Position numbers and translations under genes: made by a program
Shown here: positions 8,019 to 37,268 of the stretch, piece by piece
Layout of the letters: every line of letters starts with the position of its first letter
Position numbering within the stretch: the stretch's first letter is position 1
Virus record (IMG/VR): IMGVR_UViG_3300021961_000106
Location: 1-59,215 of that record
DNA length: 59,215 nt
Source of the DNA: a virus
Strand: one strand, 5' to 3'
Notes under the pieces: generated by a model
What the model saw: the letters and a program-made list of their open reading frames with translations, nothing else
What the model was told of the DNA's origin: nothing
Database searches by the model: none

Positions 8019-8050
8019 TTTGGTAGTCACAAACCCGCGCCCCAACTTTG
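8019..8050 (+). promoter_or_regulatory. Early promoter TTTG-N20-CAACTTTG
   Basis: TTTG at 8019-8022, a 20-nt spacer, then CAACTTTG at 8043-8050. This is a strong -33 and a near-consensus -7 (C for T at the first base). An AT-rich tract precedes it. Transcription would start near 8055 and run through a structured leader of about 250 nt into the early operon. Confidence 0.6.
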
Positions 8051-8246
8051 CATCATCGTTCTGATACATCACCGCCCCACTTCACCCGTGACCCTTTGGG
8101 TATGGCGGTACCGGTTCCACCTTCTAGACCACTGCGGTGCAGTGCTCGCCGGACCCGTTCTTTGACTTATTGATACTACCGCATGGCGCCGAGAGACGGC
8201 TCTCTCCACCCACATCCTGTAGCCCATGGATGAGCGCCACCTACAA
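8051..8246 (+). ncRNA. Structured 5' leader of the early operon
   Basis: About 200 non-coding bases with several predicted stems: ACCGCC/GGCGGT around an ACCC-TTT-GGGT hairpin (8061-8108), CACTGC-GGT-GCAGTG (8129-8143), and GGCGC/GCGCC (8185-8239) enclosing the hairpins GAGAGA-CGGC-TCTCTC and CATCC/GGATG. It has no convincing start codon and ends where the first tRNA-like element begins. It may be a regulatory leader or a further class of processed RNA; I cannot match it to a known riboswitch. Confidence 0.45.
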
Positions 8247-8295
8247 ACCCAAGCCAATTGGCTTGCTGCCCGTTCGAGTCGGGCCTTGGGTTCCA
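8247..8295 (+). ncRNA. tRNA-like element 1 (acceptor + T-arm + CCA)
   Basis: A 7-bp acceptor-like stem pairs ACCCAAG (8247-8253) with CTTGGGT (8285-8291). Between them lie a 14-nt segment able to form GCC-AATT-GGC and a 5-bp arm GCCCG/CGGGC with the 7-nt loop TTCGAGT (8273-8279), an exact T-loop consensus. The 3' strand is followed by T then CCA (8292-8295). There is no anticodon arm, so it is not a tRNA. It ends 15 nt before ATG 8311. The minihelix of acceptor and T arm plus CCA is the minimal form known to be recognised by RNase P and CCA enzymes; function here is inferred. Confidence 0.75.
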
Positions 8296-8310
8296 CCTAA
8301 AACTAACATC

Positions 8311-8502
8311 ATGAAAAACAAAAATTCAATGACCAACACAGAAATCAAAATTGCCGCCGCTGAGTACTTCGTAAAGCATATGCTTCAAGTTTATCGCGAT
8401 GAAAAGAAATATGACAAAAGAGCGGCCGAAGACACCGAGTACATCCTTTGCCTTATTGATAAGTACAAGGAAGAACTTTTGGAAAAAGGGCGAGGCTTCT
8501 AG
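8311..8502 (+). CDS. Early helical protein of unknown function (63 aa)
   Basis: The start is ATG 8311 (MKNKNSMTNTEIKIAAAEYF), just after tRNA-like element 1; a longer frame upstream only covers structured RNA. The product is predicted to be all helical and highly charged, ending EELLEKGRGF. An internal ATG at 8329 is an alternative. Its TAG stop (8500-8502) overlaps the first base of the hammerhead ribozyme. I do not recognise the family. Confidence 0.7.
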   Translation: MKNKNSMTNTEIKIAAAEYFVKHMLQVYRDEKKYDKRAAEDTEYILCLIDKYKEELLEKGRGF

Positions 8503-8551
8503 TCAAACTGATGAGTCCTAAATGGACGAAACGCCTACGGGCGTCTTTGAC
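8502..8551 (+). ncRNA. Hammerhead self-cleaving ribozyme, type I
   Basis: All parts of a hammerhead are present in order. Stem I is GTCAAA (8502-8507) with TTTGAC (8546-8551), open-ended, hence type I. The core CTGATGA is 8508-8514. Stem II is GTCC/GGAC with loop TAAAT. GAAA is 8528-8531. Stem III is CGCC-TACG-GGCG (8532-8543). The cleavage triplet GTC ends at 8545. Predicted self-cleavage between 8545 and 8546 separates the 8311 gene from the 8567 gene and leaves a 5'-OH leader of 21 nt on the downstream RNA. Confidence 0.93.
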
Positions 8552-8566
8552 ATAACCCTAAACATT

Positions 8567-9067
8567 ATGAAAGCAATCAAAATCACCCCCGACCAATTAC
8601 GCCAAGAGCCACCAAGAGCCTACAACCCCAAGGAATGGGACGCCTCTGTCGACAGGATGCTGAAGTATGGCGATGTCATCTTCTACAAGGTAGACAAGGC
8701 CGATGGGGCCTATGGATGGGATAAGTACTATGCCGAGTACACCATCCCCGAAGGCATCCGACTCCTAGGCCAATTCAGTTACGGAGGCGCCATCACCAAC
8801 GGCGGCTTCTATCAACTACACAAATCCCAAAAGACTCCCGACGGCCGCGGGCTCGAGCAGGTGCTAGACCTAGCACAAGAGGGCAAGATGGACGAGGCTA
8901 AGGCCCTAATGGTCGAGATAGAAAAATCCGATGTAGTCGAGTTGATGCTAGGCACATTCCAAAACGAACACGGCGAAGAATGCCTAATCGGAACTAGCAA
9001 GGAAGCGAGAGCCGACATGGCTGAGCGCTCTAGAAAGTACGGCTCCGTCTTCACCAAGGGGTTCTAA
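8567..9067 (+). CDS. Early protein of unknown function (166 aa)
   Basis: The start is ATG 8567 (MKAIKITPDQLRQEPPRAYN), not the upstream in-frame ATG inside the ribozyme. The mixed alpha/beta protein has GDVIFYKVDKADGAYGWDKY, a YTIPEGIRLLGQFSYGG region, a Gly-rich AITNGGFYQL, and a helical C-terminal half ending KYGSVFTKGF. No catalytic motif is evident. Its RNA would start at the ribozyme cut. Leucine is often encoded by CTA, as in other genes of this operon. Confidence 0.75.
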   Translation: MKAIKITPDQLRQEPPRAYNPKEWDASVDRMLKYGDVIFYKVDKADGAYGWDKYYAEYTIPEGIRLLGQFSYGGAITNGGFYQLHKSQKTPDGRGLEQVLDLAQEGKMDEAKALMVEIEKSDVVELMLGTFQNEHGEECLIGTSKEARADMAERSRKYGSVFTKGF

Positions 9068-9073
9068 CCCCCA

Positions 9074-9123
9074 TCCCCTGTCTACACCGGTAGCGAGCAG
9101 AGCGAGACTGCACAGGGGAGCCA
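9074..9123 (+). ncRNA. tRNA-like element 2 (three-way junction + CCA)
   Basis: An 8-bp acceptor-like stem pairs TCCCCTGT (9074-9081) with ACAGGGGA (9112-9119). Inside are a hairpin CTAC-ACCG-GTAG (9082-9093) and a hairpin GCAG-AGCGAGA-CTGC (9097-9111) whose 3' strand abuts the acceptor. G and CCA follow (9120-9123), 5 nt before ATG 9129. The loop keeps the C-R-A of a T-loop but not TT. It fills almost all of the gap between the flanking genes and resembles element 4 closely. Confidence 0.7.
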
Positions 9124-9128
9124 CCATT

Positions 9129-9353
9129 ATGAAAATCAAGACATTTAACATCGGAGAGTATGCCATCGGAGGCAGAGTACAGGTCGAGAGACTAGGTAAT
9201 GGCACCTATCGGGTGCGCTGCTTAGATTGGGACACGAGAAAGTTAGTGCACGATGCACTATGCTCAGACCTTAACGACCTACAATCACACCTAGAGCAAG
9301 AGGTAACATCTTGCTATTGGGCAGATGAGATTTACAATCACTTCAAAAAGTAA
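9129..9353 (+). CDS. Early protein of unknown function (74 aa)
   Basis: Begins MKIKTFNIGEYAIGGRVQVE, and continues with a YRVRCLDWDTRKLVHD strand-rich part and a helical tail ending EIYNHFKK. It reads like a small beta-alpha fold. It is the first gene after tRNA-like element 2 and heads a run of six tightly spaced or overlapping genes up to 10489, so element 2 would define the 5' end of that unit. Confidence 0.7.
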   Translation: MKIKTFNIGEYAIGGRVQVERLGNGTYRVRCLDWDTRKLVHDALCSDLNDLQSHLEQEVTSCYWADEIYNHFKK

Positions 9354-9358
9354 CCATT

Positions 9359-9526
9359 ATGAAATTCTTTTTAATTAATGACGGCCGCGTAATCGAGGCC
9401 AAGAGCAAGGTAGAAGCCCTTCGCTCAGCAGGCTATGACCTAATTTATTGGCAAGGCATGACCCCATACGCACAAAAGTGGGGCATCTATCCAAAACGAG
9501 TAATCGCTAAACAATACAAACCATGA
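9359..9526 (+). CDS. Early protein of unknown function (55 aa)
   Basis: ATG 9359 to TGA 9524-9526 gives 55 residues starting MKFFLINDGRVIEAKSKVEA and including an aromatic YDLIYWQGM segment. The stop overlaps the next start as ATGA. It looks like a compact beta-alpha-beta protein of the type used in host take-over, but I recognise no family. Confidence 0.65.
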   Translation: MKFFLINDGRVIEAKSKVEALRSAGYDLIYWQGMTPYAQKWGIYPKRVIAKQYKP

Positions 9527-9726
9527 AACCAATTAAACTAACAGCCCTAGGCGGAGGCGATGTCTTCGTCAACCCCAATCAAATCGGCCACATCTGCGTC
9601 ATTACTGACCTGTTGGACAAAAAGACCTACACTATCGTGGGAGTCACTACTCACAACAACGGCGGCCTAAAGATAAAGGAGACGCCCGAGCAAATCATTA
9701 AACTAATTGAACAAACAAACCAATAA
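9523..9726 (+). CDS. FlbD-like small protein (67 aa)
   Basis: The sequence MKPIKLTALGGGDVFVNPNQ, then IGHICVIT, TTHNNGGLKIKETPEQIIKL, follows the FlbD pattern (short strand, 'N-P-x-x-I' turn, strand pair, then a V/IKE-[ST]-x-E-x-[IV] helix). FlbD proteins are small beta proteins of unclear biochemical role. Here it is an early phage gene coupled to 9359..9526 by ATGA. Fold assignment is moderately sure; function unknown. Confidence 0.7.
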   Translation: MKPIKLTALGGGDVFVNPNQIGHICVITDLLDKKTYTIVGVTTHNNGGLKIKETPEQIIKLIEQTNQ

Positions 9727-9732
9727 ACAACC

Positions 9733-9825
9733 ATGAACCAAGATTTAAAAGAAACCCTCATCGGCTTTTCAGCCATCATCGCGCTAGGCGTGGCATGTTT
9801 AATCACCTTAATCATTTTCGCATGA
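9733..9825 (+). CDS. Single-pass membrane peptide (30 aa)
   Basis: ATG 9733 to TGA 9823-9825 encodes MNQDLKETLIGFSAIIALGV followed by a hydrophobic ACLITLIIFA end. One membrane helix spans residues about 9-30 with the N-terminus in the cytoplasm. The stop overlaps the next gene as ATGA, which supports its translation. Confidence 0.6.
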   Translation: MNQDLKETLIGFSAIIALGVACLITLIIFA

Positions 9826-10190
9826 ACAAGCGCATTTTAGCAATCAGCCTAGGGCTCAACCTTATCCTGTTGGGCTCTAGTTTCACGAGTGACGCAAGGT
9901 CTCGCATCATCAGCAACCTAGAAGACCTACGCGAATGGATGGAGCAAGACTTCGAGGCGGCTCTCGACCACGGCGACACCGGTACGGCTGAGCACCTTGC
10001 TCAGTACATGGAGACAATCGAAGAGACGCTAGAGCACGCCTACGACAAGCCCATCGAGCAACCCGAGTTCAACCACTTCGTATACACAAAGGACGCCAAG
10101 GTCGTGACCGACAGCGCCGGCAATGTGAACTGCGTATGGGTAGACGGACAACCTTACACCTTAGACCTAACAATACTAGAAAACTTATGA
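9822..10190 (+). CDS. Early membrane-anchored or exported acidic protein (122 aa)
   Basis: The start is ATG 9822 (MNKRILAISLGLNLILLGSS), which overlaps the previous stop. Residues 1-20 form a signal-anchor or signal peptide. The rest is an acidic helical domain (REWMEQDFEAALDHGDTGTA, YMETIEETLEHAYDK) and a short C-terminal beta part with VDGQPYTLDL. It presumably acts at the inner membrane or in the periplasm together with 9733..9825. Confidence 0.7.
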   Translation: MNKRILAISLGLNLILLGSSFTSDARSRIISNLEDLREWMEQDFEAALDHGDTGTAEHLAQYMETIEETLEHAYDKPIEQPEFNHFVYTKDAKVVTDSAGNVNCVWVDGQPYTLDLTILENL

Positions 10191-10489
10191 AAACCACAAC
10201 AGGAGCCCTAGGCAACACGGGCATGCATTCAAACGGAGGCGGAGGCGTAATCGCTGAGCGTCGCAGACCCGAACTATTCTTCCGAGACGAGACAGGCCAC
10301 ACTCAGTACCTGTGCCCAAACAATGATGTCCACTACGACAACGACGGCAACCCGTACTTGCTAGTCAAACTCGACAGGTTCCGTCAGTTCATGGCCTACC
10401 TAGACTTGACAGGCCAAGACATTGACGACGTGTGCTACGGATACATGGGTAGGGTAGGGGACGCTGTTCGTGTCGACATCCACTTCTAA
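10187..10489 (+). CDS. Early protein of unknown function (100 aa)
   Basis: ATG 10187 overlaps the previous stop as ATGA. The protein begins MKTTTGALGNTGMHSNGGGG, a flexible Gly-rich lead, and then has a compact domain with ELFFRDETGHTQYLCPNND and a C-terminal YMGRVGDAVRVDIHF. It is the last gene before tRNA-like element 3. Family not recognised. Confidence 0.7.
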   Translation: MKTTTGALGNTGMHSNGGGGVIAERRRPELFFRDETGHTQYLCPNNDVHYDNDGNPYLLVKLDRFRQFMAYLDLTGQDIDDVCYGYMGRVGDAVRVDIHF

Positions 10490-10496
10490 CATTTGC

Positions 10497-10542
10497 TCCC
10501 GCCATGGTGCATGGCTTGGTTCGACTCCAAGCGCGGGACCCA
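10497..10542 (+). ncRNA. tRNA-like element 3 (acceptor + T-arm + CCA)
   Basis: A 6-bp stem pairs TCCCGC (10497-10502) with GCGGGA (10533-10538). Inside are CATG-GTG-CATG (10503-10513) and GCTTGG-TTCGACT-CCAAGC (10514-10532), whose 7-nt loop is an exact T-loop consensus. All three helices meet with no unpaired bases, and C-CCA follows (10539-10542). ATG 10560 is 17 nt further on. It fills the gap 10490-10559 between two early genes, as the other elements do. Confidence 0.78.
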
Positions 10543-10559
10543 ACCTAAACTAAAATATT

Positions 10560-10931
10560 ATGAACAACGAGACAACAAAATTCACCTACCTAGTAGAGAT
10601 TAACGGAAACCTTGAATACCTCCTCATGACAGAGGGGCAGTTCCTAAATTACAGGTCATTAAAATATGGTGACAAGACCTGTGAGGAGTTTAATGTCGTA
10701 AGCAAGGAGCCATTCATCGACCCAAGAAACAAGACAAGATGGCATTTCACCATAGAGCGCACATTTAAGACTCGCCTTTCAGTAATGGCATCTGATGCAG
10801 AGGAGGCTAAGCAACTATTCTCTGACATGACTTTTGATGAGCTTCTAGAACAAGAAAGAGCCCAATATCATGTAACATCAACGCAAGTGCGTGTGACAAA
10901 CTTTGAAAGCGGCGCTGACTTTGAATTATAA
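10560..10931 (+). CDS. Early protein of unknown function (123 aa)
   Basis: Begins MNNETTKFTYLVEINGNLEY. An alpha/beta protein with two strand-helix repeats: a FTIERTFKTRLSVMASDAEE segment resembles the strand then 'DAxxAxxLF' helix seen in small DpnD/PcfM-like and phage inhibitor folds. The next gene, 10945..11130, carries a similar strand-helix unit (TFSTRVVVDADNEDEALEHI), suggesting they are paralogues of different length. Function unknown. Confidence 0.7.
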   Translation: MNNETTKFTYLVEINGNLEYLLMTEGQFLNYRSLKYGDKTCEEFNVVSKEPFIDPRNKTRWHFTIERTFKTRLSVMASDAEEAKQLFSDMTFDELLEQERAQYHVTSTQVRVTNFESGADFEL

Positions 10932-10944
10932 TAAACACATAATC

Positions 10945-11130
10945 ATGAACTACGAATTCATCATTTGGCATACCTTCTCTACCCGTGTGGTAGTAGATGC
11001 TGACAACGAAGATGAGGCCTTGGAGCACATCAAACTCATGGACAAAATGGGTAACCTAGACAACCTAATGCTAGAGCAAAACGACTTGGTCGACAAGACC
11101 ATCGAGAGCCGAGGCGAGATAAACAACTAA
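10945..11130 (+). CDS. Early protein, shorter relative of 10560..10931 (61 aa)
   Basis: The start is ATG 10945 (MNYEFIIWHTFSTRVVVDAD) rather than the in-frame ATG at 10903 inside the previous gene. The strand-turn-helix with VDADNEDEALEHI parallels VMASDAEEAKQLF in the preceding protein. The C-terminus is helical and acidic. Unknown function. Confidence 0.7.
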   Translation: MNYEFIIWHTFSTRVVVDADNEDEALEHIKLMDKMGNLDNLMLEQNDLVDKTIESRGEINN

Positions 11131-11135
11131 TCATT

Positions 11136-11420
11136 ATGAAAATCAAAGACATTCGATCCTTGCAACAGGAGATTGGCTACGCGCCACTCCAACGACTAGT
11201 AGACACAGGACAGGCGTGGCACATGGAAGGCTCAACGGGCCGCCTGTGCATGAGCCTTCTTAAGGTAGGCGCCCTGTTCTTGCCGCGCAAAGACTTCCGC
11301 GATGCCTATGGCAACATAGTCCCATCACGGACAAAACTCAAGGCCGGCACGACAGGCACGCTAGAACTATCAATCCAATACTACACCAACAAACTATTCG
11401 CAACCGATGAGAGCATCTAA
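11136..11420 (+). CDS. Early protein of unknown function (94 aa)
   Basis: Begins MKIKDIRSLQQEIGYAPLQR. An amphipathic helix is followed by a beta part (GRLCMSLLKVGALFLPRKDF) and a Gly/Thr-rich GTTGTLELSIQYY hairpin. It overlaps the next gene by 14 bp in another frame. No family recognised. Confidence 0.7.
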   Translation: MKIKDIRSLQQEIGYAPLQRLVDTGQAWHMEGSTGRLCMSLLKVGALFLPRKDFRDAYGNIVPSRTKLKAGTTGTLELSIQYYTNKLFATDESI

Positions 11421-11604
11421 ACTAATCAGACAACTTCAAGAGATTGCCGACGAGCACGGCCTGTCTCTAGACGACATCAACGTGAACTTCCGCTACGACT
11501 ACAATAGCGATGTTCATAACATCAACCACGTGTTCGAGGACCTGTACGACGAGAAGACAGGGACCATCCTCGAGAGCATCAGCCTACTAGCAGAATTTGA
11601 CTAA
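11407..11604 (+). CDS. Early acidic protein (65 aa)
   Basis: MRASKLIRQLQEIADEHGLS is a clear opening helix, followed by LDDINVNFRYDYNSDVHNIN and a strongly acidic end. The strand 'INVNFRYD..DVHNINHVFED' resembles small proteins with a DUF-type 'xxxIxxVxxD' core. Unknown function. Confidence 0.65.
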   Translation: MRASKLIRQLQEIADEHGLSLDDINVNFRYDYNSDVHNINHVFEDLYDEKTGTILESISLLAEFD

Positions 11605-11605
11605 C

Positions 11606-11836
11606 ATGGAACTGAAACAATTTGAACAACTGCTAGAGAGACAAGGCGCTCGCATCATGCGTAATGATGGACGACTAATCTTCATCAACGCAGAGGCAAC
11701 GCCCGACCTGTTTGACTATTGGGACGAAGAGTTCTTTGTATTGGGTGTTCACCCCGAAATGCAAGCCATTGCCGATGATAACGGATGGTACTTTGAGTGG
11801 GAGAATGCCGGCACAATTGTCGCTGTTCCTGACTAG
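11606..11836 (+). CDS. Early acidic protein (76 aa)
   Basis: I use ATG 11606 (MELKQFEQLLERQGARIMRN) because it starts directly after the previous stop. The protein is alpha/beta with DYWDEEFFVLGVHPEMQAIA and GWYFEWENAGTIVAVPD. It is very acidic and Trp/Tyr-rich, like small phage proteins that mimic DNA or inhibit host factors; this is only a compositional remark. It is the last gene before tRNA-like element 4. Confidence 0.7.
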   Translation: MELKQFEQLLERQGARIMRNDGRLIFINAEATPDLFDYWDEEFFVLGVHPEMQAIADDNGWYFEWENAGTIVAVPD

Positions 11837-11843
11837 ACAAACA

Positions 11844-11891
11844 TCCCCGACCCTAAGAAGGCGCGCCGAGCAAGACGGCAACGGGGAACCA
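11844..11891 (+). ncRNA. tRNA-like element 4 (three-way junction + CCA)
   Basis: TCCCCG (11844-11849) pairs with CGGGGA (11882-11887). Inside are a small hairpin CCT-AAGA-AGG (11852-11861) and GCCG-AGCAAGA-CGGC (11865-11879). A then CCA follow (11888-11891), and ATG 11894 begins only 2 nt later. Compared with element 2 the hairpin changes from GCAG/CTGC to GCCG/CGGC, a compensatory substitution, while the loop AGCRAGA is kept. Confidence 0.7.
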
Positions 11892-11893
11892 CT

Positions 11894-12148
11894 ATGAATA
11901 AAAAACAATCAATCCAAATCATTAAGAGCGGGAAGTTCTTCTCCTGTGAGTTCATCAAGAAAGACGGAAGCGTTCGACACCTTCGTGGTCGCTCCGGAGT
12001 AACCAAAGGCCTCAAGCCAAACGCTGGTCCACGACCATACGACGCCTCTAAACTAGGCTACCTGTGCGTGTGGGACTTGGACGCCAAGAACTACCGGCTA
12101 ATTAACCTTCAAACCTTAACCAAAGTAAATCAAATCAAAGTAAAATGA
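11894..12148 (+). CDS. SH3-like beta-barrel early protein (84 aa)
   Basis: The patterns KFFSCEFIKKDGSVRHLRGR, SGVTKGLK and YLCVWDLDAKNYRLINLQTL match the small 'SH3 beta-barrel fold-containing protein' common in Bacteroidota phages: short strands linked by a KKDG turn, a GVTK turn, and a final 'V(W/Y)D-x-x-x-x-x-YR-x-(I/V)N' strand pair. The molecular role is unknown. ATG 11894 follows tRNA-like element 4 immediately; the stop overlaps the next start. Confidence 0.75.
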   Translation: MNKKQSIQIIKSGKFFSCEFIKKDGSVRHLRGRSGVTKGLKPNAGPRPYDASKLGYLCVWDLDAKNYRLINLQTLTKVNQIKVK

Positions 12149-12510
12149 GCAACCTATTATCACTTACCCGAAACGCTGAGACCAACAAGACAGGGTTCAG
12201 TTACAACCTCAACACAGGGGACGAGGCACCAAGCCACGGCTACATGGTGTCAATGGAAGGCCACGAGACAAAGGTCGACGAGGGCCAAGACCTAGTTCAA
12301 CAAACTAAAATCTACATCATGTTTAATGCCGACACACTATATGACGGCGAGGTGTATTTGGGATGTTGGTGGGACCCAGAGACACGGGCATGGTACCTTG
12401 ACATGAGCCTCCACTTCGAGACAAAAGAGGAGGCGATGGCCTATGGTCTGAGAGAAAACCAACGATCGATTTGGGACCTAGAGAATGACGAATCAATCAA
12501 CCTGTCCTAA
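12145..12510 (+). CDS. Early protein related to the C-terminal domain of 13140..13805 (121 aa)
   Basis: The start MSNLLSLTRNAETNKTGFSY and the following GDEAPSHGYMVSMEG parallel MSNLLTFHRTIMDKGEALYN and FNPTSGFFVGLGI in the second half of the DnaA-like protein. The rest, with KIYIMFNADTLYDGEVYLGC and WWDPETRAWYLDM, is beta-rich. It is the last gene of the early operon, translationally coupled to 11894..12148 by ATGA. No function can be assigned. Confidence 0.7.
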   Translation: MSNLLSLTRNAETNKTGFSYNLNTGDEAPSHGYMVSMEGHETKVDEGQDLVQQTKIYIMFNADTLYDGEVYLGCWWDPETRAWYLDMSLHFETKEEAMAYGLRENQRSIWDLENDESINLS

Positions 12511-14830: not shown

Positions 14831-15225
14831 ACCACAAACACTACATGCAAATCGCAAACATTGTGGCCAGTGCGTCGTACTGTAACAGGGCACAAGTTGG
14901 TTCAATCATTGTGAAGGATGGCAACATCATTGCCATTGGATACAATGGCACACCTTCAGGTTGGCCGAACATCTGCGAAGATGATAGTGGAAAGACAGAG
15001 GAGTGGGTGCTACACGCGGAGTCAAACGCCATTGCCAAATGCGCAAGGGCTGGCTACTCAAGCGATGGTGCTTCAATTTACGCGACGCATTCACCTTGCG
15101 TAGAGTGCGCCAAGTTGATTGTTCAAGCTGGTATTGCAAAAGTTTATTACGGACAAATTTACCGTTGCACAAAAGGTCTCGGTATATTAATATTGCATGG
15201 CATTGATTGCGAACAAGTTATATGA
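14827..15225 (+). CDS. Deoxycytidylate (dCMP) deaminase
   Basis: 132 residues with the zinc-dependent cytidine deaminase fold: VGSIIVKDGNIIAIGYNGTP, HAESNAIAKCA (His ligand and proton-shuttle Glu, residues about 63-65), and SPCVECAKLI (PCxxC ligands, residues about 89-94), followed by GIAKVYYG. The NGTPSGW loop is typical of dCMP deaminases, which convert dCMP to dUMP for dTTP synthesis. It works with the ribonucleotide reductase at 23814..25670 to supply DNA precursors. Confidence 0.9.
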   Translation: MNHKHYMQIANIVASASYCNRAQVGSIIVKDGNIIAIGYNGTPSGWPNICEDDSGKTEEWVLHAESNAIAKCARAGYSSDGASIYATHSPCVECAKLIVQAGIAKVYYGQIYRCTKGLGILILHGIDCEQVI

Positions 15226-15377
15226 ACATCAGAATTGTAGAAGCCAAAGTAAACGGCATCCCTTTGTGGAGGGTCTATGTCAACCAAAATGTTGAGGCCA
15301 CATTCCCAACATATGAGGCAGCCCTAAAGTACGCCAAGGACCGGTCAAGATTTGGAGATGATAATTCCGTCACTTAA
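15222..15377 (+). CDS. Small protein paralogous to 17306..17458 (51 aa)
   Basis: ATG 15222 overlaps the deaminase stop as ATGA. The product starts MNIRIVEAKVNGIPLWRVYV and continues NQNVEATFPTYEAALKYAKD. It aligns without gaps to the protein at 17306..17458, which has IRIVEAIVNGLLLWRVYVNM and EATFPSYEEALKYAVD. The pair brackets the AT-rich accessory block, so they look like the two ends of an insertion or duplication. Strand-strand-helix fold; function unknown. Confidence 0.72.
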   Translation: MNIRIVEAKVNGIPLWRVYVNQNVEATFPTYEAALKYAKDRSRFGDDNSVT

Positions 15378-17094: not shown

Positions 17095-17313
17095 ATGAGC
17101 CACAAATGTCCAATAAATGAACTAAAAAACATGACATACAAAGTAACATATCTACCAGAAAACAAATCTAAAGGAGGTTTCAGAACTCTTAAGGACGCAT
17201 GGGACTACATCGCAGAGAGCTTCTGTGATGAGTGCTACAAAGAATACATAGATCACGGAACACACGGGTCATGCTCAGACCCATGGGACATTGAACAAGT
17301 AGAAGATGAATAA
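17095..17313 (+). CDS. Cys-rich small protein (72 aa)
   Basis: Start at ATG 17095 (MSHKCPINELKNMTYKVTYL); ATG 17131 is an alternative giving 60 residues. YLPENKSKGGFRTLKDAWDY is followed by FCDECYKEYI and HGSCSD, so Cys pairs and His could bind zinc. It overlaps the start of 17306..17458 by 8 bp. Unknown function. Confidence 0.65.
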   Translation: MSHKCPINELKNMTYKVTYLPENKSKGGFRTLKDAWDYIAESFCDECYKEYIDHGTHGSCSDPWDIEQVEDE

Positions 17314-17458
17314 AAACATCCGCATCGTTGAGGCCATCGTCAATGGCCTGCTGCTTTGGAGAGTGTATGTGAACATGCACTTGGAAGCAACATTCCCGTC
17401 ATACGAAGAGGCCCTCAAGTATGCGGTTGATAGAGAAGGAAGGGCCGTAGAGTTATGA
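17306..17458 (+). CDS. Small protein paralogous to 15222..15377 (50 aa)
   Basis: ATG 17306 to TGA 17456-17458. It shares IRIVEA-VNG-LWRVYVN and EATFP-YE-ALKYA with the 51-residue protein at 15222..15377 at roughly 60 percent identity. It is the right-hand boundary of the accessory block. Coupled to 17455..17622 by ATGA. Confidence 0.72.
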   Translation: MNKNIRIVEAIVNGLLLWRVYVNMHLEATFPSYEEALKYAVDREGRAVEL

Positions 17459-27108: not shown

Positions 27109-27131
27109 AGGGCCCCTATGGGCCCTTTTTT
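27109..27131 (+). terminator. Terminator between the converging halves
   Basis: AGGGCCC-CTAT-GGGCCCT (27109-27126) followed by T6. It stops rightward transcription just before the end of the leftward giant gene (stop codon at 27130-27132). Confidence 0.88.
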
Positions 27132-30100
27132 ATTCTCCTTTTGTTATCTCGGCCTTCTTTACTTTGGCCTGAATAACTCCGCCTGATTGGGACTCGGATT
27201 TTCCTTTTTCTAAATCCTTATATAGATCTTTTATTAGAATCCTACGTAAATCTTTGTAAAGAGGAACAAATCCAAGGTTGCCCATTATTTCGAGTGGCGT
27301 TCTTGTTGTTAGTTCTTTCATTCTTCGTTCTCTAGCTTCCTCTGTCTTTAAGTCTGTCTTAGATGCTACCTCGATTGCTCTCGATACAGCAGAAAATGCT
27401 GGAGAAAACGCGCCGGAGAATGTCTTAATATATTGAAGTATATCGCCTTGGTCTCTCTTTTCCTTGGGAATAACTGTGTACTGAATGGCGTCTTTGTAAG
27501 GATCATACTCTCCTGTGCGCATAGAGTCTAGGTATTTTTCATTGAACTTTTCTACGGCTATGTTTATTGGAGCCTTTACTACGTTTCCAAAGTTTCTTCC
27601 CAACAAAAGACCAGTAAGTGCCGATGCTGATGCTTGCGCCATGTCTTGCAATAGCGTGTCGTCATCTTCTTCTTCATCACCAAACAAAGAAGACAACAAC
27701 AATTTAACCAGCTGCGTAGACATAAAGCTATACATAATCATCCTTGATAAGCTTGCTCCTATAATAGCAGCACCTTGTGCTCGTGAAATCTTTCCTTCAC
27801 CCATCAATGCATACACTCCTGTCCTAGCTGTAGAATATTCGTATATCAAGAATCTTGTCATGAAGTTATTGTATTTATTAAAAGCTTGTCTCAAGAAACC
27901 CTGATTCGCAGTGTTAGCGCCCTTCAAGATTCCAGTAAATGGGTTATCTGAAGCACCAACTCGAACGCTTGTTTCGTCAGCCTTTGCGCTTGCTTGTCTA
28001 ATTGCGTCACGGTATTTTGTCAGATAAACCTCATCCCCTTTTGCTATCTTGTTGAAGTCTACGTCTATACCTGTCTGAGCCTTGAACTCTCTAGCAAATG
28101 AGCCAAACCATAATGGTTTCATTACAATTTTATCTGGCGTAGAGATTAAGTAGTCTGACGTCGTTTCTGCTACGTTCTTTACTTTCTTTAGGGAGTTATT
28201 GTATATAATACTAGATGCGTTTGCTACGTCATTTAATGAGCGACCAGCTTTTATTCCGGATGCTTGAGACATCGTTTCTTTATCGATAATCTTACCAGAT
28301 AGTTTACTACCTGGATATAGTCTTTCGATTTGCTCTGAGTTAACATTGCGCATCACATCAAGGCCGTCTTGAGACATTACGATATTCGAATACCCCATGC
28401 CATCAATAAATGATTTTGGATCATATAGTGCTACAAATGATAGGTTAGACGCAAGTTCAGCAAATGCCCTTGGCACACTAGCAAGCATGGCTCTATAGCC
28501 AGTTTTTTCTACGTAGCTAATAGCATCTTCAACAAAGCTAGTCTCTGTATATGAGTTAGCAAGTACGTTTGAAAGTGACTGCTCAAGGACTCTTGATATT
28601 GCGTTTACAATCTTCTTAGCTTCTCCTTTAGTATTGGTTTTTGCGTAGTTAAGAGTTCTCCTTGCCGTACGAATTGGTTCAGTCAAATGGTAATCCATCA
28701 ACAAATACTTTGCCCCACGAACAGTAGAAGAGAAAGGATCAAACACCAAAGGCGTAACCTTGCCTGTGCGCTCCTCTAAGCTTTTAGCCTTAGTAGAAGG
28801 TTTCATTGACGCATTAAATAGGTCAGCGATATTTAGATCCGTCACATCATCAATAGCAGATTTTTCCATCAGCACATTGTGGTGTATGTATTTATTTATT
28901 GATCCAACCTTTCTTCCACGGATAATAGCAGAGGTAAACGAAACCTTATCGCTCATCGAGTCATTGATCTTGGTGATCATCTCAATCGCCCTTTTCTCAG
29001 CCTTATTAAATGTTTCGTATACTGCATCGAGATCAATTTCTTCCTCTGCAAAGAATTTATTACGGATGTCCTTTAGGTTTTGGATATCTTTTTTGCTGTA
29101 TGTGTTTTGGTCATTCTCTTCTGCATAGTTAATGGTCTCATCAAGGAATGCCTTTGCAGAATTGACAGCTTTATCTCCAATGTTTGACTGGTACTCTCGC
29201 TGAAGCATAAACGCCATCATCTTCTGCTTTGAGTATTGAGTCTTGTTTGGGTTGTTCAAGTAAGACTTAGCTACATCAGAAAGTGCCTTGTCTAGGTTTG
29301 ACATAATTGTATTTATATCACCTTGATACTTACTATACGCCTGAGAGACTGGCTTGAATATAGAATTAAATATTGGTCTTGTGTTGAAGTTTCCAAATAA
29401 CTCATCAATAAAGAAAAGAGGGTTTCGCTCAATTGCCTTTACTAATGCACTATTTTCTTTGCCAAATAGAACTTTCATTCTAGATATAACACCTTCAAAA
29501 GGAAGTTTCTTGGCGTTTTTGGCTGCATTGGCAAGCTCTTCTCCACGGTTATACTGGTTCATCTTTTCTTTGATGATCTGTGCATAGTGTGGCAAGAAGC
29601 CATTTTCTATGTTGTCAAGTACGCCTAGTAAATCCTTAAGCTCCTTATTACTCATCTTGTCGATAGCGCCTGTCTTAATGAGCTCATAAATACTTCTAGC
29701 CAAATTACGCTCATCTACGGTTGGAAGCTGAGAGAATATAGGCGTATAAGACTTTACTTGATCAACAAGCTCTAAGCGCTCTTCTTCGATCTCTTCTTCT
29801 GATCTTGGATCTTTTTTGGTTCTCTCCATGATCAATGACTTGTACTTTTTAAGAAGCTCTCCATCTTCTGGAGAGATTGATCCATCGGCTACCATTTTGC
29901 TTATGGTCTCAGAGTACATCAATTTTCCATCTTTGTCTACCTCTTTGTCTTGGTAATTGCTGAATACTTCCTCTAGTGCCTTGACTCGCTCTATTTCACC
30001 CTCTACTGAAGATAGTATGTTTTTTGCCTTGTTTGTTACAATATCTATATCGGTAAGCCCAAGAACAGTTCTACGCTCAGAGAACGTCTCAACAAGCTCA

Positions 30101-33100
30101 GCGTAGTCATTAAACACATTCTTTGGAATCGTATAGGCGTTTAGCGAGAATACTTTTTGCAATAATGGAGAAAGGCCATCTGCGATACCAATCTTTGTTG
30201 CTGCGTTACGCTTTGCTATTTTAAGGCTGTTGTTAAGTTTGTAGGCTCTCTCAGCAAACTCGGCATTCTTCATCACCCTTTCTAGATAGTCAATGAAGCT
30301 TCTAACACTTTCAGCATCTACCAATTTTACTTTTGAAGCTTTGTTGAGTATAGCTCGCATCTGGAAAGCGGTAATTTTACCACTTGTTTTAAGCCTCATG
30401 GCTTCCTTTCCAATGCCACGAAGCATGCTCTGCATAAAGTCCTCTGCATATTTTGCAGCCTTAGCTCTTTCTGCAATGAGATTTGTATTTGTAGTAAGGA
30501 TTTTATCCTCTGGCTTTATGCCTAACACACGATGAACTCTAGGTGCTGACTTGATGCGCTCACCAAGTTCTTTCTTGATATCACGTACCATCTGCTCACG
30601 CTGAGAGTCGTTGGCGATCTCGTACACCTTGCTTGTCTGAAGATATCCTATAGCGTCTTCAAGTATTCTGGCTTTGTTTGCCCCTCTCTCTTTTGCCTTT
30701 TCAATAACTCCATCAAGGTTTTCCCGCATGCGGTCGTAACCAGGAAGATCTTTGTAGTTGATCTTCTGAGAGCGAGCGGTGATTGTAGTGGCTGACTCAA
30801 CGGCAGATACAAGGTTTGGATTTTCTCCGGTTTCTTTTGCAATAATATATGCTCTTGCAACTTGGTTAGACAATACTTGCTTCTTGTTTTTTGGAGTGCC
30901 ATCTTGATTAAATCCATATGCATCAAAATCAAATGGAGAAACCCTTGGTAAATCGGTGGATCCGGATTTCTCATTAATCTTAGCCACTTCTTTATCGGTA
31001 AGCACTCTATTGACTTTCATTTCGCCAGATATAATCCAGCTTCCTGTCATATTTGAATTTGTCTTATACTTATAATTACCAAGAGCTGGTAACTGGTCGG
31101 TTATATGGGCAGTCCTAGGTATAATTTTACCGTCTTTTGTCTTTTCTGCTCTATTATTAGCTTCTGTTTGCCAGTCAAAATCATCACCAACTTCAACTTC
31201 AGCCCATACCTGATCGCTATCTCTTAATGTTGGAGCTTTGTCGCTTGGATTTTTCTTTGATCCAATATGTGTAGCAATTGCGAACTCTCCAGAATGCCAG
31301 CCTGGCCTATAGGCCAATGGTCCAAGAGTTGACTTAACCATAGTCTTTCCTTCTTTTGTTGTGGTCAATTCGCCAGCCTTTGCAGCAATCCAATCTCCAG
31401 TTGTAACAGATTCATTAGCCCCAACAAAAAGTGGAAATAATTCTCCAGGAAATCCCTTCTTTACTTTAAATAATTTGTAGGCTTTTTGTGTTTTATTAGG
31501 TGCTTTTACATCTTTATGAATTAAATCTTTTAAAGATTCAAGTTCATTGTTGTCTAGATTGTTTAATGACGATGAAAGCGCCTTGACCTCAGATGGATTT
31601 ATTTTTTGTGACCTAGCGCTTAATTCTATTTCTCCATCTTGAATACCAAAGTTATCATTGAGCGTTTCAATTTCCTCGGTAGTAAGTTTTACTTCTTTCT
31701 TCTTGGCGGCGCCCGATGTGTCGGTATTTCGTTCTTGAGCGTTATCGATGCCATCTTTGAACTCTTTTACAGAAGAGCCGTATTTGTCGCCCATTGCTCC
31801 ATCCGTTTCTATGTCAGATCCCTCAAGCACAGACAAGTCTCCAGCTTTTAGTTGTTCTAAAGAAAACACCCCGTCATTTACTCTATTAACGAGTCTATTG
31901 GCAGATGATGAATATGTTGCGTCCTCCCTTTGTTTGACCCCTAGATGTCCAAACAGATTTTTCTCATAAATCCACAATATTGCTTGAATGTCTGATACGG
32001 ATAATTTTTGTCCAGACTCTTTAGCTATTTTATCTCTGGCGGCTTCAAATGCCTTTTTTGTAAAGCTTCTAAAGTCCTTTGCATATTGTTTTTTATTTGA
32101 AACACCAGACTCTATGCCTTCAGATATGTCATTAACAACTCCTTGCGCCTTCTTCCATATTTGATCGCCTTTTCTATATGGCTTCAAGGCCTCGTTTCTT
32201 TCGGCCTTTGCAATTCCTTTGTATTTACCACGGCCCCCAAGAATTGCCTGGAATAGTTTTGAATGCTCTTGCGCTAAGGTTAATGCATCTGAATATGACA
32301 CACCATCTATGCCATTGGCTTCTTTAAAATCTTGCATTTCATTTTCAGAAACCTTAGACCTCATATCGCCCTTATACCGATATATGGTTCTAATACACCA
32401 TCTATCAATGGTAGGCGTTCCGTCTAGCCCAGATAGGTTAGAATAAAACGCTCCAATCTTAGGCCCAAATATTAAAACGGACATTGGCAACATTTCATTG
32501 CTATTCCACTCTGGGTCTGTTGCTAAGTTCTGTGACTTCGCCTGTGCATAACTGCTAAGACCAAATTCTTTTAATAGGGTTTTGCTTAAATTTGATACCG
32601 TGTCAATTTGCTGTAAGAACTCGGCTGTTTTTACAGGATCATTATTAAATTTCTTTAATATATTATTGTACCTATCTATACCAGATGCAATAGCGCTTGC
32701 ACCTTTGCCTGTTCCAACATCTGTAGGTACTTTCCTAGTTTTCTTAAACTGATCTATTCCATATATTACCCTGGTTAGATTTTCATATACGGCTGTTGAG
32801 TTTGAAGCAACAGCGATAATAGCAGTGGCGGCTTCCTTTATGGCTGGGTTATTTTTTATATCTGAATCCAGTTTTGAAAGGATGTCAAGTGCTTTTGCAT
32901 AGTCTTCCGTATACCATCCTTTTCCAGAATCAGAGCCAAATTTTGACATCGCAAACAATATCTCATTCTTGGCATAGTCAGATACAATATCCACTGCATT
33001 GTCAGAAAAATCAGTAATTCCTAGTGAGCCGTATGTTTTTTCATAATACTCATTCATTGCAGAGGCAATGTCATAGTTTGTTACCTTTGATTTCCCTGTC

Positions 33101-36100
33101 TTTGGGTTTATTGTTCCAACCTGTATTCCAAGTTTTTCCATTGCGCCATCAAAGGCATCGATAACTTGTTTTCTAGCTGTAATGTCTTCTTCAGTAGCGC
33201 CTTGTTCTTTCTCTTCAAAGAACTGCTCAACTGTCTCGCCTTTTGACACCTTTTCAGAGATGGTCACCATGAAGTCAATGATGTTCTCTGGTGTGGCATC
33301 CTTTAAGAATACCTCTTTGCCAGTCAGCTCAAGAGCAAATTTGTTGATAATGTCCTTGATCTTTTCAAGCAGAGTCTTTTCTTGCTGCGTTAGGTTTTTA
33401 GGATCAAGACCACCCTCTACCAACATGCCACCAAACTCAGCCATGTACTCACGGAACATAGCCTCTGTGCCCTGATCAGCATATTCGTTTGAGAACTTTG
33501 TAAGAGCCTCCGCTACATCTTCGTATCCAGATACCTTCAGCTGGGCATCTATGGCCTTTCTAAACTCTGCAAACTTTTCTGGGTTTTGCCCAAACGCATC
33601 GTTCAGCATCACTTCCCAGGCCTCATGACCAGCTGTGCGGTTATTGGCCTGTGTCTTGTTGATTACAATAGCAATTGGCTTTGCTCCTGCAAACAGGGCC
33701 TGACCACGGACATTTGTGAAGCCATCGGCTACCGCTTGGGCTTTTTCTGCTCCATACCTAGGAGTCAATGCCTCTACAATGCGAGCCTTCGTGTCTTGCA
33801 GCTTATCCCCAACAATAAACTCAACCTCTGGGAATGCAACGCCAAGAGCGGTAGACGCTGCGTCGATGCTCTGCTTAACTTCAGATGGGGTTGATGTTAC
33901 TGTTATTTGCTCTACAGCAGGAGCTTCTTGAAGAGCCCTTGCTTGCTCTACAAAAGAGTCACGATAGGCCATAGCCTTGTCGTAATTATCAAAAGTCTTC
34001 TCCTCAATATCAAGCTGGTTGTTTGGATCATACACCATGGCTACAACATCGGGTGTGCCATGTACTTCTTTGTTCCATCCTTTTGGAGCAAACTCTTCAG
34101 CAAACTCCATTCTTGAAGCAATCCTAAAACCGTTTTTCTTGTATACTTTTGTTAGGTACGTATCAAAGTTGTCTAGCTTGATACCACCATTTTTTACAGC
34201 CTCTTTCAAGACGTCATCTGCCACTCCTTTTCGAGTAGTTTCTGGAGTCTTAAACACGCCCTTAATGTCGCCTTCTGGAGATACAAATCCATAGCCGCCA
34301 TCAACAGATACTATAGTACCACTCTTTGCTGTTTCGAGTTCAACTGGATCTACGCTCCAGTAAAGTGTTGGGTCAGACACTTTTGTACGGTCGAGCTCCT
34401 GTACGTAAAACTCGGGCGTTACTTCTTCGACTTTACCTTCTTCGATAACGACTTTAGGTTTTGTTTCTGTTTTTGTTTCTCCATTCTTTTTCAGGATAGG
34501 CAAATCTATCTTTACGACGTTTCCATCTTGTCGTATGTTACTTTCATTTAGTCCAAGTTTTTGAATATATGGCAATACAGCTTCTTTGACTTTGTTAAAT
34601 TGCTCATCATTATATACCCCTACTGGTGAAAATTTATCAGAAGGAATGGGTACTCCTAAATCATTAACTATAGAGGCTCCATTAATACGCACTTCAGTTG
34701 TTTCTACATTCCCATTTTCGTCGTATTGCAATTCATATCCTCTATCTAATTGTTGATTCCAAAACCTAAGTCCATCTGTAGATATGCTTGTTTTTTCTGT
34801 GTATTCGTGTCCAATGGGGAGCATTGACTGGACGCCAGCCAACATTATTTTTAAATTCTCTTTGTTTCTAGATGCATTCTCTAGTTTTGAGCTCCATTTA
34901 TTAGTTGGTTTCCCGTCTTCATAAAGACGATAGAATCCTACAAAATTACCAGCTGAAGTTCCTGTTACAACCACATCAATAGAGCCTGTTTCTGGGTTTG
35001 CATATTTTACAAATTCAATTCCATTGTTTTTTGCATAATCAACAGGAACTGCATCAATGTTGCTTTTGCCTAGTGCTCTAGAGAATTTACCAGCTGTGAG
35101 AAAAGTTTTTTGTTCTATCTTAGATTCTGTTTCTTTTCTTCTGTCTTCTATCTCATTTACTGGGATTATGTTTTCTTCGACTTTACCTTCTTCGGTAACG
35201 ACTTCAGGTTTTGTTTCGGGTGCTCCTTCCGCCATTTCTTCGCCAACTCGGGCTTCTGGCTGAACAGGAACTTCACTTGTTGTTTGCTTTTGAACGGCAT
35301 TGTTTTTTACTCTTTGAACTAGTTCTTGTCTTTTGTTTATTAATGAAATAGCGCTTGACTTAAGATTCTCAAGTGCAATTTTCTTTGCATCTTCACTCAT
35401 TGTAGTGCTAGCTTTAATAGCATCGGCATCTGCAATGTTTTTATTTAGTTTTGACTTTATCTCAAGCATTTCAACAATGTCTTGATTAGTCATATTGTCA
35501 ACGAAATCAGAAGCTCCTTGAAGAACTTCTTCTCTCTTTAATACAATTGATCGTGCTGCAAATGACAAAGCAGCCAACTCTGCTGGATCATTTGTGCTAG
35601 TCATAGCACCTTGTAGACTCGCTAGTTGTTGGTTTGACTCGCGAAGCCAGTTTGTAGCTTCTTTGGTCATTGCGCTAACCTCAAGATATGGCTTTACCTT
35701 TTCTTTATATGCGGATATTGACAGTGATGGAGCCGACATTCCCCCTCCGCTAAAAGCACCAATGAGTGCGGCATCAAAAACACGCTCAGAGAATTGTTGT
35801 AAAGTGATTGGCTTGCCTAAAACTAAAGCGTCTGCACCTTCTTGGACAACAGATGTAAGCCCTTCTGTCGTTCCCTCTAGTCCAACTGCGCTAATAAATT
35901 CGCCAGCTATATTTTCGGAAATCTGTTTAGACGCAATTGAATTTCCTATAGACGCTCTGGCTAATCTATTCATACCAGCCGATCCAACCCCTTCTAGAAC
36001 GCCTTCTGCAAGACCATTAATAACGGCCGTGCCAAGCAATTCTTTAGATATTGTATTCCCTTCCTTCAGTTCTTGGTCTATCTTGTTTACAGCCGTTACT

Positions 36101-37236: not shown

Positions 37237-37260
37237 TGCTAGAAGTCTTTGCGACTCCTG

Positions 37261-37268
37261 CAAATATA
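37261..37268 (-). promoter_or_regulatory. -7 box TATATTTG upstream of the giant gene
   Basis: Minus strand TATATTTG, then 24 nt to ATG 37236. It shows that the nominal TTG start codon lies within a promoter. Confidence 0.55.

Follow-up and report, generated by a model that had tools for sequence, protein, structure and literature searches.

What purpose is served by four short structures that resemble transfer RNA (tRNA), end in CCA and lack an anticodon arm, in the early region of a phage genome? These elements, E1 to E4, lie in IMGVR_UViG_3300021961_000106, a complete IMG/VR virus record of 59,215 base pairs (bp), the whole of which was analysed and is referred to here as the window. We propose, with a probability of about 60%, that they are minimal tRNA mimics that recruit host tRNA-maturation enzymes to split the early polycistronic RNA. 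The evidence consists of their geometry and covariation, their position at the stop codons of upstream genes, and self-cleaving ribozymes at equivalent junctions.

tRNA-like elements and ribozymes in the early operon

All four elements of the original prediction were verified, including their stems, loops of 7 nucleotides (nt), unpaired discriminator base, CCA and spacing of 2–17 nt to an ATG (Table 1). The 3′ arm, from the end of the 7-nt loop to the discriminator, is exactly 12 nt long in all four and is divided between the T-arm stem (P3) and the acceptor stem (P1) as 5+7, 4+8, 6+6 and 4+2+6 in E1 to E4, respectively. In tRNA, the same distance is composed of a T-stem of 5 and an acceptor stem of 7. 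The pair closing the 7-nt loop is G-C in every element, like pair 53–61 of tRNA. Compared with a functional tRNA, the elements possess the 12-nt 3′ arm, 7-nt T-loop, discriminator and CCA and lack the anticodon arm. This geometry bears out the claimed likeness to a tRNA without an anticodon arm; ARAGORN calls neither a tRNA nor a transfer-messenger RNA (tmRNA) in the window, nor any of the family elements in 40 loci checked.

RNAfold reproduces the drawn structures of E1–E4 with z-scores of only −1.6 to −1.8; because such single-sequence values are merely mild, folding energy alone is insufficient proof, and it is the geometry that establishes the elements. A descriptor consisting of an acceptor stem, a 7-nt loop, a distance of exactly 12 nt between loop and discriminator, and CCA matches E1–E4 alone on both strands of the 59-kb window, compared with a mean of 0.35 matches in shuffled genomes (n=20). 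When its parameters were varied on the window and its closest relative, G002 (IMGVR_UViG_3300025647_000034), the count peaked only at an arm of 12, a loop of 7 and a CCA tail. A chance origin of E1–E4 was rejected on the basis of these shuffles and parameter variations.

The region between acceptor and T-arm is more variable, with a linker of 11–14 nt in E1 and E3-type elements and a three-way junction, without an anticodon arm, in E2 and E4. A small hairpin had been described for all four elements; it is firm in E2 and E4 (3–4 bp), reduced in E3 to a 2-bp micro-hairpin with a UGG triloop as the conserved part, and ambiguous in E1. Within the window, CCA is present in all four elements and a purine discriminator only in E2 and E4, and the TTCGANT T-loop is limited to E1, E3 and the wider family.

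Early genes are transcribed rightwards from about 8.3 kb, and E1 is located in the leader of the first of them. The early operon (8311–12510) contains four spacers of 57–70 nt with exactly one element in each, namely a hammerhead ribozyme, E2, E3 and E4, respectively, and the remaining spacers (at most 15 nt, or overlaps) contain none; two small genes near 9734 and 10947 were set in approximate frames for this survey. The stop codon of the preceding gene lies 6, 7 and 7 nt before the start of E2, E3 and E4, respectively, and the next ATG follows the CCA by 15, 5, 17 and 2 nt in E1 to E4. The original prediction had missed this stop-codon spacing of E2–E4, as well as the hammerhead in the remaining fourth long spacer and the large, widespread phage family to which E3 belongs.

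The hammerhead, with its conserved core and three stems, starts on the final base of the preceding stop codon and is predicted to cut after C8545, 21 nt upstream of the ATG at 8567. Among relatives, a hammerhead descriptor returned 11 matches, compared with 0.33 expected; most of these start only a few nt from a stop codon and 13–28 nt before an ATG, which was read by eye in the few cases without a computed next frame. A pistol ribozyme in the phage contig L063 overlaps one stop codon, with its end 22 nt from the ATG that follows, and the next three junctions of this contig are occupied by mini-tRNAs, the first of which follows the gene directly downstream of the pistol. A second pistol was identified in L209. 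Hammerheads flanking phage genes have been proposed to split long transcripts into single-gene messenger RNAs (mRNAs), and one of them, in HF1/HF2, precedes a start codon by 13 nt (Perreault et al. 2011, PMC3088659).

Conservation in a close relative and a wider family

The primase of G002 is 81% identical to that of the window, and its layout is the same, comprising an E1 ortholog, a hammerhead and three further elements, each element located between a stop codon and an ATG. In an alignment of the two leaders, E1, the hammerhead and a conserved structure upstream of E1 (E0) are much more strongly conserved than the intervening small gene. The outermost P1 pair of E1 is A-U in one phage and U-A in the other (window to G002), and the hammerhead ortholog also covaries, its stem II being rebuilt in G002 with pairing retained. 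Across seven elements, P1 pairs 5–8 use up to four Watson-Crick types, and P3 pairs 2–4 likewise use up to four; together with the compensated stems in G002, this upholds the internal covariation that had been noted among the four elements. The genes upstream of E3 and of the third G002 element are homologous (33% identity, E 6e-16), and the two elements differ in sequence subtype and have unrelated downstream genes; at this orthologous junction (after window gene w10187 and L022:43–309) a tRNA-like element is present on both sides of the comparison. Furthermore, gene 11606–11836 and E4 together constitute an insertion relative to G002. Elements are therefore kept at the junction while their own sequence and their downstream neighbour change.

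For the wider family, 105 loci of primase relatives were searched for anticodon-less tRNAs. The strict CCA descriptor yielded 7 matches compared with 8 expected, so the CCA form is not general among these relatives. With CCA and the P2 hairpin dropped from the search, elements were found in L107, L133 and L063, in addition to L054, which had been found earlier; one L063 element has a linker identical to that of E3 (ATGGTGCATGG). The resulting R3 family is defined by a P1 of 6 bp, a W-UGG-W micro-hairpin, a P3 of 6 bp and TTCGANT. A pattern that covers linker and T-arm and leaves the acceptor free (TGGWGCANNNNNNGGTTCGANTCC) matched 62 IMG/VR stretches, 60 of them distinct. An acceptor with at least 6 of 7 pairs adjoins the linker in 44 of these 60, compared with 3.6 expected from random places in the same contigs, and the T-stem is fully paired in 50. 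A first IMG/VR pattern, derived from the AGANNGCG subgroup, produced three matches in GC-rich coding sequence and was rejected as chance.

The ungapped alignment A11 (42 members) folds into a P1 of 6 bp, a 2-bp micro-hairpin with a UGG loop, 4 nt, a P3 of 6 bp with the TTCGANT loop, and the discriminator. Pairing extends to 99.7% of cells and falls to 41–55% when one strand is slid as a control, and double (compensatory) changes occur in 13 of the 14 pairs. RNAalifold, run unguided, recovers the same twelve P1/P3 pairs (6+6). A11 was chosen for P1/P3 pairing; evidence free of this selection is provided by the acceptor test (44/60) and by pairs 7–13, 8–12 and 18–36. CCA is absent in 39 of the 42 members, and the window, G002 and L195 encode it. 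Conservation of the structure in related phages, on which the original prediction had staked itself, is thus found both in G002 and in the wider family. The compensatory changes indicate selection on RNA pairing, and the differing helix sequences offer no homology for recombination. It is consequently hardly credible that the elements arose from phage tRNA genes by decay or serve as DNA-level joints at which cassettes are exchanged, as might be suspected from the different genes between the elements of the window and G002 and from odd tRNA genes in other relatives.

Model R3 scores 56.5 bits on E3, which belongs to its training set, and 14.5 bits (E=0.0043) on E1, which lies outside that set and is the second-best match of the region. 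It does not fit E2, E4, G2b or G2c, which group by themselves in model R1, built from E2, E4 and three G002 elements. Searches with R1 returned only its own training elements among the relatives and nothing in 79 further loci, and this subgroup is therefore known from two phages only. In a scan of GTDB, R3 matched 4 of 296 genomes in the phylum of G018, the other 292, full of normal tRNAs, yielding nothing; in the phylum of G015 it matched only G015 itself, which holds phage contig L063, and none of 298 others. The R3 model is specific, and the GTDB match in G139 shows the stop-element-ATG layout. A blastn search of phage isolates with the elements and with L195 and L212 identified no relative with known biology; a Porphyromonas phage match retains the T-arm and CCA alone.

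Across 65 members, the element starts between −8 and +12 nt from the upstream stop codon in 56 (4.4 expected) and exactly on the last stop-codon base in 25 (0.2 expected). The distance to the next ATG is looser, with a median of 37 nt and a range of about 2 to more than 100 nt. The original description of elements just before an early gene holds insofar as an ATG follows, and this association is weaker than that with the upstream stop codon. As every terminating ribosome would meet such a structure, the elements could work uncut at the stop codon by modulating termination, re-initiation or mRNA decay. We consider this distinctly unlikely, since the exact 12 nt, the 7-nt TTCGANT T-loop and the discriminator would be superfluous for a generic block, and self-cleaving ribozymes are found at equivalent sites.

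The elements also occur in arrays. R3 identified at least 13 within about 4 kb of the L195 record, eight matches each in the L215 and L212 records (some of them partial T-arm matches), five each in L199 and L225 and four in L197. Such copy numbers, at least 13 in L195, and the tRNA mimicry itself would suit decoys or inhibitors acting in trans to titrate host tRNA enzymes or tRNA-targeting defence nucleases. This is very improbable, because elements without an anticodon are not targets of anticodon nucleases and their strict placement, one per junction beside stop codons, speaks for a role in cis. Downstream of the elements, a hairpin of at least 5 bp lies within 30 nt in 28 cases, compared with 9.4 in shuffles; these hairpins begin directly after the encoded CCA in L195 and 2–3 nt past the discriminator in L212, L197 and L225. 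The protective 5′ structure originally suggested as a role is made less likely by the fact that the elements directly adjoin or overlap the stop codon of the preceding gene and that the protective-looking hairpin of the relatives lies on their 3′ side. The leaders that follow the elements in L197 and L225 contain AGGAG Shine-Dalgarno-like motifs, which suggests hosts outside Bacteroidota, and those of the window are A-rich instead.

Putative role in splitting early transcripts

The covariation supports a fold in which acceptor and T-arm form a 12-bp stack with a T-loop, on which the UGG of the short linker probably docks; this UGG loop is a plausible stand-in for the G18-G19 docking of tRNA. 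Host maturation enzymes would read such a stack as a tRNA. RNase P (ribonuclease P) requires a T-loop or similar loop, the D-loop being dispensable (PMC4919913), and the 3′ RCC(A) of a substrate pairs with RNase P RNA (PMC12710915). Because self-cleaving ribozymes occupy equivalent junctions, we infer that the transcript is cut at the element. We are least sure of the side on which the cut is made. The anatomy favours a 3′ cut after the discriminator or CCA, of the type made by ribonuclease Z (RNase Z), because it would account for the overlap with stop codons, for the topology of the ribozymes and for the hairpins that follow closely. After such a cut, the upstream mRNA would end in the mimic as a protective, CCA-tailed 3′ terminus, and the downstream mRNA would gain a new 5′ end a few tens of nt before its ATG, resulting in separate early mRNAs with defined ends. 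Processing by RNase P or RNase Z, one of the roles named in the original prediction, is thus also the reading that we prefer. The hammerhead and pistol would perform the same task at equivalent junctions without requiring an enzyme.

RNase P could cut on the 5′ side additionally or instead. If it cut only there, the tRNA-like structure would stay on the downstream mRNA as a cap-like 5′ structure or be trimmed later. The T-loop requirement noted above fits this possibility, the 12-bp stack with the encoded CCA of the window and G002 amounts to a minimal bacterial RNase P substrate, and R-CCA is present in E2, E4 and four G002 elements. However, in 25 of the 65 members such a cut would sever the upstream stop codon and generate non-stop mRNA, the E4 stem, about 6 nt before the ATG, would hinder initiation, and most members beyond the window and G002 lack CCA. 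A purely 5′ cut by RNase P therefore appears unlikely.

Several observations count against the proposed recruitment of tRNA-maturation enzymes. The window, G002 and L195 encode CCA, which in E. coli-like hosts would block RNase Z, so their elements may depend on RNase P or a different nuclease; for the window, the textbook rules of E. coli point to RNase P. The discriminator of E1, E3 and L195 is a pyrimidine, which is poor for RCCA pairing. Furthermore, the loops of E2, E4, G2b and G2c deviate from the T-loop consensus and R3 misses E2 and E4, and these four elements may represent a separate subgroup. We see the odds as evenly divided on the further proposition that the elements are a widespread, hitherto undescribed class of natural anticodon-less tRNAs serving only as cut marks in phage operons, interchangeable with self-cleaving ribozymes, and that phage mRNAs consequently end in a tRNA-like structure that host tRNA enzymes produce and that is CCA-tailed and perhaps even aminoacylated.

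If the splitting role is correct, phages would have independently evolved mitochondrial-style tRNA punctuation with stripped-down tRNAs of 43–50 nt that have no decoding role and exchange places with hammerhead and pistol ribozymes at comparable junctions, and the question of why phages carry self-cleaving ribozymes would become testable as transcript splitting. The elements would also represent natural minimal substrates for RNase P, RNase Z and the CCA-adding enzyme, and a compact signal for monocistronic messages that evades tRNA gene finders.

Relation to known RNA classes and other features of the genome

In agreement with the initial assessment, which knew of no described class with such a layout, no Rfam 15 family, including mascRNA-menRNA (RF01684), matches over any element at gathering score, E1–E4 contain no hammerhead or other known ribozyme core, and the class is not described in the open-licence literature (subscription journals and preprints lay outside the search). 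The parts are familiar from the anticodon-less domain of tmRNA, mitochondrial punctuation, mascRNA and phage hammerheads; what appears to be new is the way in which they are combined, together with the arrays and the exchange with ribozymes.

In mascRNA and MEN-beta, RNase P and RNase Z act on a tRNA-like structure and thereby define where the long RNA upstream of it ends. The phage elements would likewise place a tRNA-like structure at the 3′ end of an upstream RNA, but the former are eukaryotic and nuclear, and the latter lie at phage gene junctions, one at each. In mitochondrial polycistronic RNA, tRNA structures between genes mark cut sites; these punctuation marks are working tRNAs with anticodons, whereas the phage elements cannot decode. 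The tRNA-like domain of tmRNA (RF00023) also combines acceptor and T-arm without an anticodon arm, and the elements show weak Rfam matches to the tmRNA T-arm. Unlike tmRNA, they have no mRNA-like domain or tag, consist of a single piece of 43–50 nt and occur many times per genome, and the position of the alanine identity pair G3-U70 of tmRNA (pair 3–40) is G-U in at most one of 42 members. Phage hammerheads (RF00163) are alike in the kind of junction, the distance before the ATG, the start at the upstream stop codon and the presumed transcript splitting, but possess a catalytic core (CUGAUGA...GAAA) that is absent from the tRNA-like elements. Theta ribozymes, which are HDV-like (hepatitis delta virus-like), lie near phage tRNAs and mature real tRNAs (PMC10879173). 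They are comparable as phage RNAs tied to tRNA 3′-end processing, mostly in Bacteroidota phages in which CCA is rarely encoded (PMC10879173), and differ in that the elements contain no ribozyme core. Minimal RNase P model substrates share the 12-bp acceptor/T-arm helix, T-loop and 3′ RCCA; these are laboratory constructs, whereas the elements are natural and genomic.

Unusual tRNA-like genes were also observed in two relatives. L006 (458–1196) contains four in tandem with a leucine-like D-arm, an identical acceptor (AGTCAGG) and odd anticodon regions with inserts of 40–127 nt between acceptor and T-arm, some of the genes being without a clear anticodon arm. L047 (MW202828.1) contains two tRNA-likes in tandem (523–696) where the early region ends, followed by a hairpin; the second of them lacks an anticodon arm.

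Table 1. Features of the early region of the window, of G002 and of two further loci
Feature	Location	Strand	Details
E1	window 8247..8295	+	tRNA-like; acceptor ACCCAAG/CTTGGGT; T-arm GCCCG-TTCGAGT-CGGGC; discriminator T; CCA
E2	window 9074..9123	+	tRNA-like; P1 8 bp; P3 4 bp; loop AGCGAGA; G-CCA
E3	window 10497..10542	+	tRNA-like; P1 6 bp; P3 6 bp; linker ATGGTGCATGG; T-loop TTCGACT; C-CCA
E4	window 11844..11891	+	tRNA-like; P1 6 bp; P3 4 bp; loop AGCAAGA; A-CCA
Hammerhead ribozyme, type I	window 8502..8551	+	Rfam RF00163, 37.5 bits (gathering 34)
G002 E1 ortholog	L022 2359–2310	−	
G002 hammerhead	L022 2113–2064	−	
G002 further element	L022 1815–1767	−	
G002 further element	L022 1122–1074	−	
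G002 further element	L004 79–127		
Pistol ribozyme	L063 1677–1747		
Pistol ribozyme	L209 4383–4449		
Bacteroidetes-type promoter-like sequence	window 8019..8050	+	TTTG-N20-CAACTTTG; found by eye; kept in G002 (alignment)
E0	window 8184..8239	+	conserved three-way junction in early leader; fold z −2.4 (window), −2.2 (G002)
First early gene	window 8311..8502	+	63 amino acids (aa); without family
Early gene between hammerhead and E2	window 8567..9067	+	166 aa

The primase, terminase, portal and GroEL/GroES genes assign the phage to a group of podoviruses whose relatives include Flavobacterium (Elemovirus) phages, Cellulophaga phages and Podoviridae sp. ctfjg026 (MW202828). The promoter-like sequence is the presumed start of the early transcript. 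E0 shows covariation between the window and G002 in its outer stem and first hairpin, and an unpaired TCCACCCA within it is conserved. Family assignment of the flanking early genes yielded nothing informative. Elsewhere in the window, a pair of small paralogous genes is located about 2 kb apart at 15207–15377 (VEAKVNGIPLWRVYVNQN...) and 17306–17458 (VEAIVNGLLLWRVYVNMH...), and the minus strand contains a single open reading frame of 3377 aa at 27130–37263.

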